Of a stretch of DNA of 33,396 nucleotides, positions 3,198-29,916 are shown one piece after another; the first letter of the stretch is position 1, and each line of letters opens with the position of its first letter. Under the pieces are notes generated by a model. That model was given only the letters and a program-made list of their open reading frames with translations, searched no databases and was not told the origin of the DNA. Origin of the DNA: a virus; IMG/VR virus record IMGVR_UViG_3300032275_000012, positions 1 through 33,396 of that record. One strand, given 5' to 3'. Both the position numbers and the translations under genes were made by a program.

Positions 3198-3416
3198 ACA
3201 TAAACAACTTATATATACACCACATATTGCCATATTACCAAATCTTAAACCAGACAACATCACCGCTTCATGACTATACACACTCTACATGCCTTGTCAA
3301 TACTGAAAATAATGAAATGTGTTCTAGTAACTGCATGTGTATCACATCTTTACAAGAGCGCAAACATACAATATTTTTTTAAATTTATACTAATAAGAGT
3401 AAAAATATTTGTAAAA

Positions 3417-6054: not shown

Positions 6055-6344
6055 TACTTATCATGCACTATGCCATTCTTCTTACGGTATTAATACCTAG
6101 AACAATTAATTATTTTACACTACACATATCCTTAGAAACACTATTCTACAGAACATGCTTTTTTCTACCATAGAAAACCTAAAATAATTAATATACCTAA
6201 TACACCAGATTCAGAAAATATTGCCACCAGGGGGTAGCCACCCAGTAAGAAGAGGGGGGGGGATAGCTAGACAGGACCCTTGTCTTTATGCTTCCCATAC
6301 TTGTTTTTCATGTTAGATATCCCTATCTTTATAAAAAATATAAT

Positions 6345-7154
6345 ATGAGAAACAGAAATCCCTTATGTGGTATTTATAGTATATTATGTATTTTAAATAA
6401 TAAAGTTTATGTAGGTTCTTCTACTGATATAAGGCATCGTTGGTGTCAGCATAGGCATAGTTTAAATAAGATGTTGTTTTCTAATATTCATCTACAAAAT
6501 GATTATATTTTATATGGGAAAGATAATTTCATATTTTCTGTATTAGAATTATGTAATAATGATTCCTTGTTAATTTACGAGAGTAAGTGGATGACTTTAT
6601 TAAATTCCAGGAATAGTTTATATGGATATAATATAATGGATTCTTTAAATGGCAATGTTATTATAGAGAATGTAAATGCTAGTAAAGTAAAGTTATCTTT
6701 TGTATATTGTATAGATAAAATTACTGGTGATATCGTAAAAGGTTATAGAAAAGATCTTGAGTTATATTTTAATTCTAATTATAAACGTCTAAGTGAATGT
6801 TTGCAGTATTGGCATAAGTATAATAAGAACTGCCATAAGTCTTATAATGGATATATTTTTGTGTGTGAATATGATTATGATGTTTCTTTTGACTATGTGA
6901 ATTATAAAAGACCTGTAAAAGTAAAAGATAGTAGAGAAAAGATTAAAAAAGACATAATACCATATTCGGACAGGAATCTGTTTAGAGTATCTGTTATTGC
7001 TTGCGATAAGATTACTAATGTTGAATACGCCTATAATTCTATTGCAGAATGTTCTTTGTTATTAGGGCTAATGAAAAGAAAGGTTTATGAGGCATTAAAA
7101 TTTCCTTACATGCAAAGAAGTCATCATGGATATTATTTTAAAAAGGCATTATAA
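6345..7154 (+). CDS. GIY-YIG homing-type endonuclease, 269 aa
   Basis: From the chosen start, GIY is at residues 9-11 and YVG at 22-24, followed by the helix with R30/R32 (STDIRHRWCQHRHSL) and the conserved acidic residue E79 (IYESKWM). This is a complete GIY-YIG catalytic domain. The remaining ~180 residues are basic and aromatic and include repeats of the kind that bind DNA (NVEYAYNSIAECSLLLGLM near the end, like NUMOD/IENR modules). I prefer ATG 6,345 over the upstream ATG at 6,288 because the catalytic core begins at once and an A-rich leader precedes it. It is the only rightward gene in the leftward arm, which suggests insertion. Such nucleases copy themselves into uninfected alleles in mixed infections. 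Confidence 0.85.
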   Translation: MRNRNPLCGIYSILCILNNKVYVGSSTDIRHRWCQHRHSLNKMLFSNIHLQNDYILYGKDNFIFSVLELCNNDSLLIYESKWMTLLNSRNSLYGYNIMDSLNGNVIIENVNASKVKLSFVYCIDKITGDIVKGYRKDLELYFNSNYKRLSECLQYWHKYNKNCHKSYNGYIFVCEYDYDVSFDYVNYKRPVKVKDSREKIKKDIIPYSDRNLFRVSVIACDKITNVEYAYNSIAECSLLLGLMKRKVYEALKFPYMQRSHHGYYFKKAL

Positions 7155-9423: not shown

Positions 9424-9629
9424 TTTGATAAGTCATTAACTTGAAGTTTATCTGCATACATACGTTGTAGTTTGAGTTTATTTTCATAAGTTAAGTATCT
9501 TCCATATATCTCAAATAGTTCTCTTAGAGGCATCAAGTCTTCTAATAGAGCATCTTCTACATATAAGAATAGATTATCTACATCCTCCTTTGACAAATGA
9601 TTTATATATGTAGTATAATTGGTTCCCAT
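9420..9629 (-). CDS. Small acidic helical protein, 69 aa
   Basis: The protein is helical and acidic in its centre (KEDVDNLFLYVEDALLEDLM) and ends with a basic helix (LTYENKLKLQRMYADKLQVN). It is linked to both neighbours: its ATG overlaps the upstream stop (TAATG) and its stop overlaps the next ATG (ATGA). No known family. Confidence 0.65.
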   Translation of the reverse strand: MGTNYTTYINHLSKEDVDNLFLYVEDALLEDLMPLRELFEIYGRYLTYENKLKLQRMYADKLQVNDLSK

Positions 9630-9885: not shown

Positions 9886-10236
9886 TTAGAAAGGCAAATC
9901 AAATTCGGCATCCCCTTCATTAATATTTATCTGTTTCATTAATGTTTCAGATTCTTTATTATAATCTACTATAGGTTCTTTTGGATCAACAGTAGTTAAA
10001 GGTGTGGCTAATGGAGTAGGTGTTGCCATGTCAATAGCACTTACTTCTCTCTTCTTAGAAATAAACCCTCCAAAAAAGTTCTCCTTAGAGCCTTGCTTTA
10101 CATATAAACATATATCATGTATCTCACCATTTAACTTTACTGAGCCTTTATAATCTGGATGCTTATCACTAGTCTTAAATTTATTAATAAATAAGATAAG
10201 ATTGTTTTCGTTTAGGTCTAATTTAAATTCTGCCAT
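9886..10236 (-). CDS. SSB-like protein with acidic C-terminal tip, 116 aa
   Basis: The first ~65 residues look like one small beta-barrel (LILFINKFKTSDKHPDYKG, then SVKLNGEIHDICLYVKQGSK). This recalls short phage proteins with an OB-like or DUF736-like domain. A Pro/Thr-rich flexible linker follows (TPTPLATPLTTVDP), and the protein ends EGDAEFDLPF. An acidic tail closing in a hydrophobic-Pro-Phe tip is the hallmark of single-stranded DNA-binding proteins, which use it to recruit replication partners. Size and layout fit a compact phage SSB. It is second in the operon, 4 bp after the ribbon-helix-helix gene. The OB fold itself is inferred, not shown. Confidence 0.65.
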   Translation of the reverse strand: MAEFKLDLNENNLILFINKFKTSDKHPDYKGSVKLNGEIHDICLYVKQGSKENFFGGFISKKREVSAIDMATPTPLATPLTTVDPKEPIVDYNKESETLMKQININEGDAEFDLPF

Positions 10237-10240
10237 TTTA

Positions 10241-10423
10241 TTATTCTTTTTTAGTGTTATTAGAAGATAATGATTGTTCTATTAGAAACTCTGCTTGTTT
10301 CCCTATAGTACGTTTATTTGCCTTTGCTAAGGACTTAATCTTATTGTATAGATTAACATCTCTAGTTACTATACGAATTTCGTTTTGTTTTTCCATTTGC
10401 AATGATACAACTCTTTCCAACAT
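10241..10423 (-). CDS. Ribbon-helix-helix-type DNA-binding protein, 60 aa
   Basis: A single beta-strand (NEIRIVTRDV) precedes two helices (LYNKIKSLAKANKRTIGKQA, then EFLIEQSLSS). This is the size and order of Arc/CopG/MetJ-type repressors, which bind DNA as dimers through the strand. An internal ATG at 10,396 (MEKQNEIRIV) would put the strand at the very N-terminus, as is typical, and a TAATATTTGG box overlapping 10,427-10,436 would favour that shorter form. It is the first gene of the leftward operon and next to the divergent control region, so self-regulation or control of both arms is plausible. Confidence 0.65.
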   Translation of the reverse strand: MLERVVSLQMEKQNEIRIVTRDVNLYNKIKSLAKANKRTIGKQAEFLIEQSLSSNNTKKE

Positions 10424-10524
10424 ATTCCAAATATTATGATATTTATTTAAAAACTATTTCTATTTAACATAATATTAAAGTTATTCACAAAACAGGCAAT
10501 TTATCAACAATTAGTCATGCGAGC

Positions 10525-10555
10525 TTGGAAAATTCGGCGTGAAATTGTAGCTTTG
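10525..10555 (+). promoter_or_regulatory. Bacteroidota-type promoter, TTG-N20-TAGCTTTG
   Basis: TTG (10,525-10,527) is followed after 20 bp by TAGCTTTG (10,548-10,555), an exact TAnnTTTG -7 box at the standard 19-21 bp spacing. Transcription would begin near 10,562, where the hairpin series begins. There is no ORF behind it. Confidence 0.5.
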
Positions 10556-10559
10556 TCGT

Positions 10560-11107
10560 GCCTGTGAGCTTAGCAGTTGTTAGCAGGCAGAGCGAGGTGA
10601 TCGAAAGTACTGACATCAGACTGACATCAAGCTCTCACGAACTCAAAGATACCTTCTTTTCTTTGCAGTTGTTTGAGAGCTCAGTTCCTGAAACCCTGAT
10701 ACACAGACTCTGTTACTTACTAACTAATAATAACTAAAAAATTAATTACGAAGTAATAATCAGAACTAAGCATCTCTCTAGGAGATGCGTACTACAGAAG
10801 ATCTGCTTAGCAGAAATAAGAGTCCCCCAAAATAAAAATAAAGGGGACGGTTCGCAAAAAGGTTCTTTTCTTTCTCACAAGGAGAAAGAGTAAAATAAGA
10901 GAAGATAAGCTAGAATGATTCTGTTACGTTTTTATTTTCCAGTTAGAATTTAGATTGAAAAAGAAATGTTCATGAAAATAGAAACAGAAGGAATTAATTT
11001 TAGAAAAGATATGTACTAAACAAAAGAAGCAACTCCACTCATGACTCAACTGCGTATAGGTTATGAGAAGCAAGAAAAGACTCACCTTAAACAGTGGGTC
11101 TTTTTTT
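10560..11107 (+). ncRNA. Candidate structured non-coding RNA, about 550 nt
   Basis: A promoter-like pair at the left and a strong terminator at the right enclose a stretch without a credible gene. Hairpins seen: 10,559-10,589 (TGCCTG/CAGGCA); 10,630-10,681 (AGCTCTCA/TGAGAGCT, with inner AAC/GTT and AAAG/CTTT pairs); 10,770-10,788 (GCATCTC/GAGATGC); 10,802-10,814 (TCTGC/GCAGA); 10,822-10,848 (GTCCCC/GGGGAC); 10,869-10,889 (TCTTTCTC/GAGAAAGA); and the terminator. The first 120 nt are unusually G+C-rich, a common sign of structured RNA in AT-rich genomes. I cannot match it to a known class such as GOLLD or ROOL. A 5' part that controls replication or packaging is possible. Some hairpins may instead be DNA-level sites. 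Confidence 0.5.
11075..11107 (+). terminator. Strong rho-independent terminator, rightward
   Basis: AAAAGACTCAC (11,075-11,085) pairs with GTGGGTCTTTT (11,094-11,104), 11 bp with one G-U, around an 8-nt loop, followed by a T-run to 11,107. No rightward gene precedes it, which is a main argument for an RNA gene here. Confidence 0.75.
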
Positions 11108-11116
11108 ATATTCAAA

Positions 11117-11149
11117 TTTGTAATATGTAAACTTATATAGTATATTTAC
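11117..11149 (+). promoter_or_regulatory. Promoter of the rightward arm, TTTG-N20-TATATTTAC
   Basis: TTTG (11,117-11,120) and TATATTTAC (11,141-11,149) are 20 bp apart, the Bacteroidota -33/-7 layout with one change in the -7 box. The first rightward gene starts 24 bp further on. Confidence 0.6.
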
Positions 11150-11172
11150 TTCTCAATTAAAAATATTTATAT

Positions 11173-11418
11173 ATGTGCAATACTAAAAGAGAAGAAACTG
11201 TACTCACTTCGGAAGAGATAGAAAAAAGGAAAAAGGATTTAATGGAATATTATGAAGAACAACTTCCATTATTAAGACTTCAACATGAATCTGAGAAGTT
11301 ACAATCGGATATAGAAGAATTTAGGTTACGTGCCTTTGCAGCAAGTGTAAGATTATCCCAACTTATGCAAGGACCTAAAGAAGAAAAAGAAGAAGAGACT
11401 AAAGAAGAAGCTAATTAA
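11173..11418 (+). CDS. Small coiled-coil protein, 81 aa
   Basis: The first gene of the rightward arm codes for a highly charged, helical protein. Residues ~10-65 form a likely coiled coil (EEIEKRKKDLMEYYEEQLPL, then LRLQHESEKLQSDIEEFRLR), and the tail is acidic with EEKEEE repeats. Small proteins of this type (…YYEEQLPLL…) recur near structural genes in Bacteroidota phages, but I know no function. The start is 24 bp after the predicted -7 box. Confidence 0.75.
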   Translation: MCNTKREETVLTSEEIEKRKKDLMEYYEEQLPLLRLQHESEKLQSDIEEFRLRAFAASVRLSQLMQGPKEEKEEETKEEAN

Positions 11419-29337: not shown

Positions 29338-29916
29338 ATGCTATATAATATGTTTACTAAAGAACAAATATTAAAAACAATAGGAGATAAAGGATATTCT
29401 TTAGATAAAAGAATAGGTTATCCTAATCTCGTAGGAGTACGTTTTTTAACTAAGATTAATTCATTTGATGATGAATTATATGTTTTAACTTATGACAATA
29501 GTGGAGATATAGACATAGAAAAATATTCTATTACAACAGATCCAGGTTTATATGCTATACATCATACAATTAATCCTAAAGGTACTGCAATTATTGTTCC
29601 TGGGTTTTATAAAGACTTATGGACATTTGGATTACATAAGGGAAAGTATAAAGCATTTGTGCAGTTAAATAAAGTATCAGTATATAGAGACAATAATAAA
29701 GATAGTGTTTATGATTTAATCCCAGAAACAATAGATAATGGTATCTTTGGAATAAATCTACATAAGGCAGGATTGACTTCTATTGTAGTTGACAATTGGA
29801 GTTATGGATGTCAAGTATTTAAAAATTCTGATGATTTTGATAAAGTGCTTAAACAGGCAGAATCAAGTGGGTATAATAAATTCAATTATATTTTATTAAA
29901 TAATATTGATATATAG
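29338..29916 (+). CDS. Endolysin, L,D-transpeptidase-like fold, 192 aa
   Basis: The C-terminal half holds GINLHKAG (H142) and VDNWSYGCQVFKNSDDFDKV (C158), then the family end FNYILL. This 'H...W-S-x-G-C-Q' pattern is the catalytic His/Cys of YkuD-like L,D-transpeptidase-fold enzymes; phage members are taken as peptidoglycan hydrolases. The N-terminal ~60 residues are a less clear domain (KTIGDKGYSLDKRIGYPNLV). It lacks a signal peptide, so it would need the holin to reach the wall. It follows the holin-like and spanin-like genes. A start at 29,350 (MFTKEQ) is nearly as good. The assignment as a hydrolase rather than a cross-linker is inferred from context. Confidence 0.7.
   Translation: MLYNMFTKEQILKTIGDKGYSLDKRIGYPNLVGVRFLTKINSFDDELYVLTYDNSGDIDIEKYSITTDPGLYAIHHTINPKGTAIIVPGFYKDLWTFGLHKGKYKAFVQLNKVSVYRDNNKDSVYDLIPETIDNGIFGINLHKAGLTSIVVDNWSYGCQVFKNSDDFDKVLKQAESSGYNKFNYILLNNIDI

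Follow-up and report, generated by a model that had tools for sequence, protein, structure and literature searches.

A candidate structured non-coding RNA between the divergent gene arms of a crAss-like phage contig

GOLLD RNAs are phage-borne and are often located near tRNA genes. Together with ROOL, they represent large phage RNAs that assemble into cages of RNA alone, with no function known; the expression of GOLLD goes up during lysis (PMC12286853). The window analysed here, that is, the whole 33,396-base virus contig IMGVR_UViG_3300032275_000012, which is probably a fragment of a phage genome, contains a structured stretch between two divergent gene arms, and an earlier note on this DNA proposed that a ~550-nt RNA, recalling those of the GOLLD/ROOL kind, is made there before the rightward operon. 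The structure predictions and sequence comparisons described below make it reasonably probable that this stretch encodes a stand-alone, heavily structured, lineage-specific phage RNA of about 550 nt.

The contig and the gap between its arms

Protein comparisons indicate that the contig originates from a crAss-like (Crassvirales) phage. The rightward arm encodes the crAss-like terminase (phrog_6681, E 1.1e-58) and portal protein (phrog_6547, E 3.5e-86) that define this assignment, and a major head protein is also encoded rightward; the top annotated terminase matches are Crassvirales records, e.g., cr55_1 (25% identity over 92%). Terminase relatives were found in 289 stretches of IMG/VR, and the best 80 of the 289 are 53–58% identical, so there is no close relative to compare; a terminase search of GTDB found no relatives. 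The first leftward ORF of the ORF list (10,241–10,423, − strand), the start of which may be internal, also yielded no relatives when used as a query. It is followed by a gene for a homologue of single-strand DNA-binding protein (SSB; 9,886–10,236, − strand; phrog_18154, E 1.4e-5), and the relatives found with SSB, 30–65% identical over parts of the protein, do not have the candidate RNA. The rightward operon begins with a gene encoding 81 amino acids (11,173–11,418, + strand), which has homologues in 15 terminase loci. The gap between the arms comprises 749 nt and contains the candidate RNA.

The leftward arm also includes a rightward gene for a GIY-YIG homing endonuclease (6288–7154, + strand). 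No tRNA genes were found in the window. A weak match to isrG RNA (1677–1882, − strand; 31.5 bits against a cut-off of 100) lies inside a 215-aa ORF (1601–2248), coincides with a G+C peak and is probably a coincidence. A match to abiF RNA (RF03085; 29,292–29,327, + strand; 42.5 bits, cut-off 37) precedes an endolysin-like gene (29,338–29,916; phrog_3000, phrog_33083); no Abi_2 gene was found in the window and no abiF RNA match in the 50 relatives searched. The abiF antitoxin RNA acts in trans against its toxin (PMC12373285), so an orphan phage copy could act on host AbiF as a decoy.

Predicted fold and coding potential

The candidate RNA occupies positions 10,556–11,107 of the + strand. The minimum free energy (MFE) of the + strand over 10,560–11,107 is −140.2 kcal/mol, compared with −113.4 ± 6.3 kcal/mol for shuffled sequences (z −4.28; 0 of 100 shuffles as stable), and the z-score of the 548-nt strand barely changes, to −3.92, when the terminator hairpin is left out; the − strand of the same region gives −1.95. 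With the pooled s.d., the candidate reaches z −4.79, against a minimum of −4.18 among 115 background windows of the same size taken from the same contig, and is the most extreme of the 116. The structure is concentrated in 10,600–10,862: the 150-nt windows starting from 10,601, 10,701 and 10,751 have z-scores of −4.4, −4.7 and −5.1, exceeding all 444 background windows (minimum −4.3), while the fold of 10,855–10,990 is ordinary (z −0.76).

Computation gives the + strand a chain-like fold, with hairpins in a row and one junction that joins three of them. The predicted fold contains at least eight hairpins, where at least six had been counted earlier, and includes the compound 10,630–10,681 stem recognised at that time. 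Counting from the 5′ end, it comprises a 5′ hairpin in a G+C-rich domain (10,559–10,589); the compound stem, to which the fold adds an outer 6-bp extension (10,619–10,686; z −3.63 for 10,618–10,690, with 1 of 200 shuffles equally stable); a long A+T-rich hairpin corresponding to inverted repeat I2 (10,711–10,758); a multi-branch element (10,763–10,853), where a GAACU/GGUUC stem closes three hairpins (10,770–10,788, 10,802–10,814 and 10,822–10,848; z −4.84 for 10,755–10,862, 0 of 200 shuffles); and a hairpin ahead of the terminator (11,038–11,067), all on the + strand.

The stretch 10,525–11,107 is non-coding under three genetic codes. Its best reading frame scores 0.121 log units per codon, the phage genes having a median of 0.339 and a 5th percentile of 0.148. 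Recoded genes (TAG=Q or TGA=W) were rejected, as neither table opens the frames usefully; codon scores and both recoded tables thus agree with the previous remark that there is no good ORF. The rise in G+C content, put earlier at ~48%, is real: it amounts to 46% over 10,556–10,705 versus the average of 31%, and fewer than 1% of the 150-nt windows (0.75%) are as G+C-rich.

Ends of the candidate RNA and alternative readings

The −7 box of Bacteroidota promoters is TAnnTTTG. A pattern match revealed the promoter-like pair TTG-N20-TAGCTTTG of the Bacteroidota −33/−7 type, which the earlier note had listed, at 10,525–10,555 (+ strand), and TTG-N19..21-TAnnTTTG occurs only this once on both strands of the 33 kb. 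The pair is weak evidence by itself, because shuffles of the whole window give 3.3 ± 1.9 such matches; the chance of a match on the + strand of the 749-nt gap is about 1%, and, as a promoter of the RNA, the pair is suggestive by its place only.

The 3′ end of the candidate RNA carries an intrinsic terminator (11,072–11,107, + strand; −15.4 kcal/mol), as would a free-standing RNA. Described previously as an 11-bp terminator with a 7-T tail, it is a real terminator with T7, but its core consists of seven pairs, followed by A-U pairs extending into the T tail. Directly downstream, the rightward operon has a conserved promoter-like element, TTTAAAT-N8-TTTAAAC-N8-TATATTTG (11,111–11,148, + strand), recognised by matrix, alignment and sites in relatives. 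The alignment of the rightward-operon starts of relatives contained one conserved block, directly before the first gene (L020:2309, L031:309, L046:2314, L222:10540 and others), and the matrix made from relatives scored 24.8 bits at 11,111 (best of 12 shuffled windows, 9.4). The end of the element fits the Bacteroidota −7 box, and its place and sequence suggest a promoter, perhaps a late one. The matrix also picked out a second, weaker site at 3398 on the − strand, which is a possible leftward promoter; at 11.9 bits, it exceeds the 9.4 bits of the best among the 12 shuffled windows.

A hairpin with a T run is present upstream of the conserved element in 17 of the 17 distinct loci examined that have this element. 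The terminator stems of relatives have different sequences (ATCCAGGTA/TATCTGGAT, ACCCAACTAG/CTGGTTGGGT and GCCCTTAGA/TCTAAGGGT, compared with GACTCAC/GTGGGTC in the window), and the hairpin is kept at the same place; such compensatory change indicates that the terminator is selected, which implies that rightward transcription reaches it. As was pointed out earlier, no rightward gene precedes the terminator: the ORF list contains no credible one between 7154 and 10,525, and, therefore, the transcription keeping the terminator useful would be that of the candidate RNA. The selected terminator thus suggests a transcript from the gap and is the best indirect evidence for it. In most relatives, however, rightward genes lie ahead of this terminator–promoter boundary, whereas in the window only the candidate RNA does; the terminator could be an inherited operon boundary and is therefore no independent proof of the RNA.

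If the gap does encode a stand-alone RNA, host RNA polymerase, carrying the housekeeping sigma factor of Bacteroidota, would start near 10,560, at the promoter-like pair, and termination at 11,072–11,107 would free the RNA. The terminator would also shield the next promoter from that transcription, with the virion operon starting at ~11,155, and, during infection, the product would function in the cell as a stable, structured RNA, as is presumed of GOLLD in the phages that carry it.

A rather unlikely reading, though the one that survives best among the alternatives, is that the gap encodes no functional RNA and is a regulatory spacer, holding promoters for both directions as well as the terminator of an earlier operon. 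A rightward operon since lost would then have left the hairpins as debris or processing signals, or they would belong to a longer antisense transcript that starts in the leftward arm and runs rightward. The latter is made possible by a perfect sigma-70 consensus, TTGACA-N18-TATAAT (12/12), which is unusual for a Bacteroidota phage and points rightward within the leftward arm (9,590–9,619, + strand). The spacer would also account for the rightward genes directly preceding the same boundary in relatives, for the ordinary fold of 10,855–10,990 and for the failure to find a homologue, but the strand bias and the z-scores of −4 to −5 in 10,600–10,862 go well beyond a terminator, leaving the terminator out hardly matters to the z-score, and neither codon scores nor Pfam searches recognise a gene remnant.

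It is improbable that the gap functions as DNA, serving as a replication origin between the divergent arms with its palindromes, DnaA box and A+T-rich stretch. The sole match to TTWTNCACA in the window, TTATTCACA (10,481–10,489, + strand; one found, 5.1 expected by chance), does lie within a stretch of 22% G+C near the SSB gene, and the skew changes its sign around the gap; yet there is only one box and no iteron of at least three copies, the skew change also tracks gene direction, and the preference of the structure for the + strand is needless for a DNA element. A decayed gene or gene fragments would be a very improbable reading: a 52-nt stretch at 10,957–11,006 (+ strand) matches the gene for QueE in Cellulophaga phage phiST (83%, E 4e-4) in the same reading frame, but it is a tiny scrap spanning 7% of the region, the complete QueE found no match in the window by tblastn, there is no Pfam match and the remaining frames look non-coding.

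The stand-alone RNA is preferred because its structure is beyond chance on one strand, the region is non-coding and has a promoter-like site and a kept terminator, and because structured non-coding regions recur near the junction in related phages (GOLLD, the L069 stretch and Culoivirus). Strand-biased structure, lack of coding, the promoter-like site and the selected terminator, accordingly, all speak for the RNA that the earlier note had placed before the rightward operon. On the other side, no homologue was found in the collections searched, the promoter match carries little weight by itself, the terminator doubles as the inherited operon boundary, and the GOLLD RNAs of relatives are leftward and lie several kb from the rightward operon, in a different slot.

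Comparison with structured RNAs of related phages

A blastn search with the region against phages and plasmids revealed no match at 1e-5 and short matches only at E ≤ 10, and Rfam gave nothing credible for it. Matches of three 16–17-mers in IMG/VR lacked surrounding similarity, and a 24-mer had no match in GTDB genomes. The single-sequence covariance models R1 and R2, run on ~1.3 Mb of relatives, recovered the window, with no other hit better than E 0.7, nhmmer found no homologue, and the 50 relative records searched contained no convincing one; at such a distance these negatives are not strong, as a non-coding RNA may be unrecognisable between phages with 57%-identical terminases.

Other structured RNAs were found near the junction. 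The contigs 3300042295_000443 and 3300010157_000040 have in common a 936-nt non-coding stretch that is 94% identical, most of their other aligned DNA being 69–86% identical, and one pattern taken from this stretch led to further contigs. RNAalifold, applied to the leftward strand of five distinct members (66–94% identical), gave −204 compared with −87 ± 7 for shuffled columns; both sides had changed in 80 of the 232 pairs, and 53 of the 1160 cells were unpaired. The Rfam GOLLD model scored 88 bits on this RNA (E 5e-23) and 115–122 bits on other members (E 1e-33 to 7e-35); these values are below the Rfam cut-off of 150 and, therefore, standard annotation misses these RNAs. Both the model scores and the strong covariation indicate that the RNA common to these related contigs is a divergent GOLLD. 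In 3300010157_000040, its identification relied on sequence identity together with the family profile, the Rfam model giving no score at E ≤ 0.01. The Rfam model places GOLLD near the junction in five contigs, and the family profile in more; in L163:6232–7091 (+ strand), L198:5574–6438, L222:1680–2545, L224:2759–3632 and L217:3486–4358 (all − strand), the assignment rests on the Rfam model, the family profile and covariation. L222 also contains the virion-operon start, and its GOLLD is located ~2.3 kb into the leftward arm, close to a tRNA-Arg.

In another relative, a structured non-coding stretch (L069:340–790; z −5.34) with repeated AAACAAAGAGTAA / AGAGTAGCCCT units lies between a leftward gene and the same rightward operon, directly before the latter. 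In Culoivirus, cr55_1 (L193:700–1270) and cr1_1 (L195:1580–2130) share a 550-nt non-coding stretch, 92% identical, which is structured on the leftward strand (z about −6) and adjoins the divergent junction. Comparison of all these junction stretches with the window RNA revealed no resemblance.

At E ≤ 10, the GOLLD model (RF02032), that of the conserved 3′ domain, matched neither 10,200–11,300 nor any other part of the window, and the ROOL model of Rfam found none at E ≤ 10 in the region and at E ≤ 2 in the window; the Rfam check suggested earlier thus did not bear out membership in either family. A covariance model made from the 3′ domains of crAss-like GOLLDs scored 6.3 bits on the window (E 1.8, filters off), nhmmer with the GOLLD family profile found nothing there at E ≤ 10, and the strand is opposite. 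That the RNA is a GOLLD or ROOL too divergent for present models to detect is therefore a far-fetched reading, even though the kind of phage is the same, the size and the arm junction are similar and GOLLD is present in relatives. The analogy with GOLLD is well chosen as to place and type, given the divergent GOLLD near the junction of several relatives, but not as to membership.

A more tentative proposal is that the window contains a new class of large phage RNA and that the crAss-like arm junction is a site where unrelated large structured RNAs replace one another, GOLLD in some lineages and others elsewhere; if true, this would point to a shared job for them. Should the RNA be transcribed, it would found a new RNA family of a known kind, comparable with GOLLD and ROOL in its working at most as a large structured phage RNA, and, should crAss-like phages reserve a place for varied large RNAs, comparison and deletion in cultured phages would make their function testable. 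Two by-products are usable: the divergent GOLLD group of crAss-like phages under the Rfam cut-off and the conserved promoter-like element of their virion operons.

Like GOLLD, which occurs in related crAss-like contigs near the divergent arm junction, the window RNA would be a large structured phage RNA, but it matches GOLLD neither in sequence nor by covariance model, and it is rightward, while the GOLLDs of relatives are leftward. GOLLD is often longer than 800 nt (PMC12286853), compared with 550 nt here. As to the usual setting of GOLLD, the window comes from a phage, and no tRNA gene was found in it. ROOL resembles the window RNA as a large phage RNA with many hairpins; it differs in that the Rfam search at E ≤ 10 gave no match to it and, again, in the window having no tRNA. 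The inter-arm stretch of Culoivirus likewise has several hundred structured non-coding bases by the divergent junction, but it has no sequence similarity to the window RNA, is structured on the leftward strand and is not annotated as RNA. With the crAss-like virion-operon boundary described here, the window (11,072–11,148) shares the hairpin, the T run, the TTTAAA-type element and the first gene, and the difference lies upstream, where relatives have rightward genes and the window has the candidate RNA.
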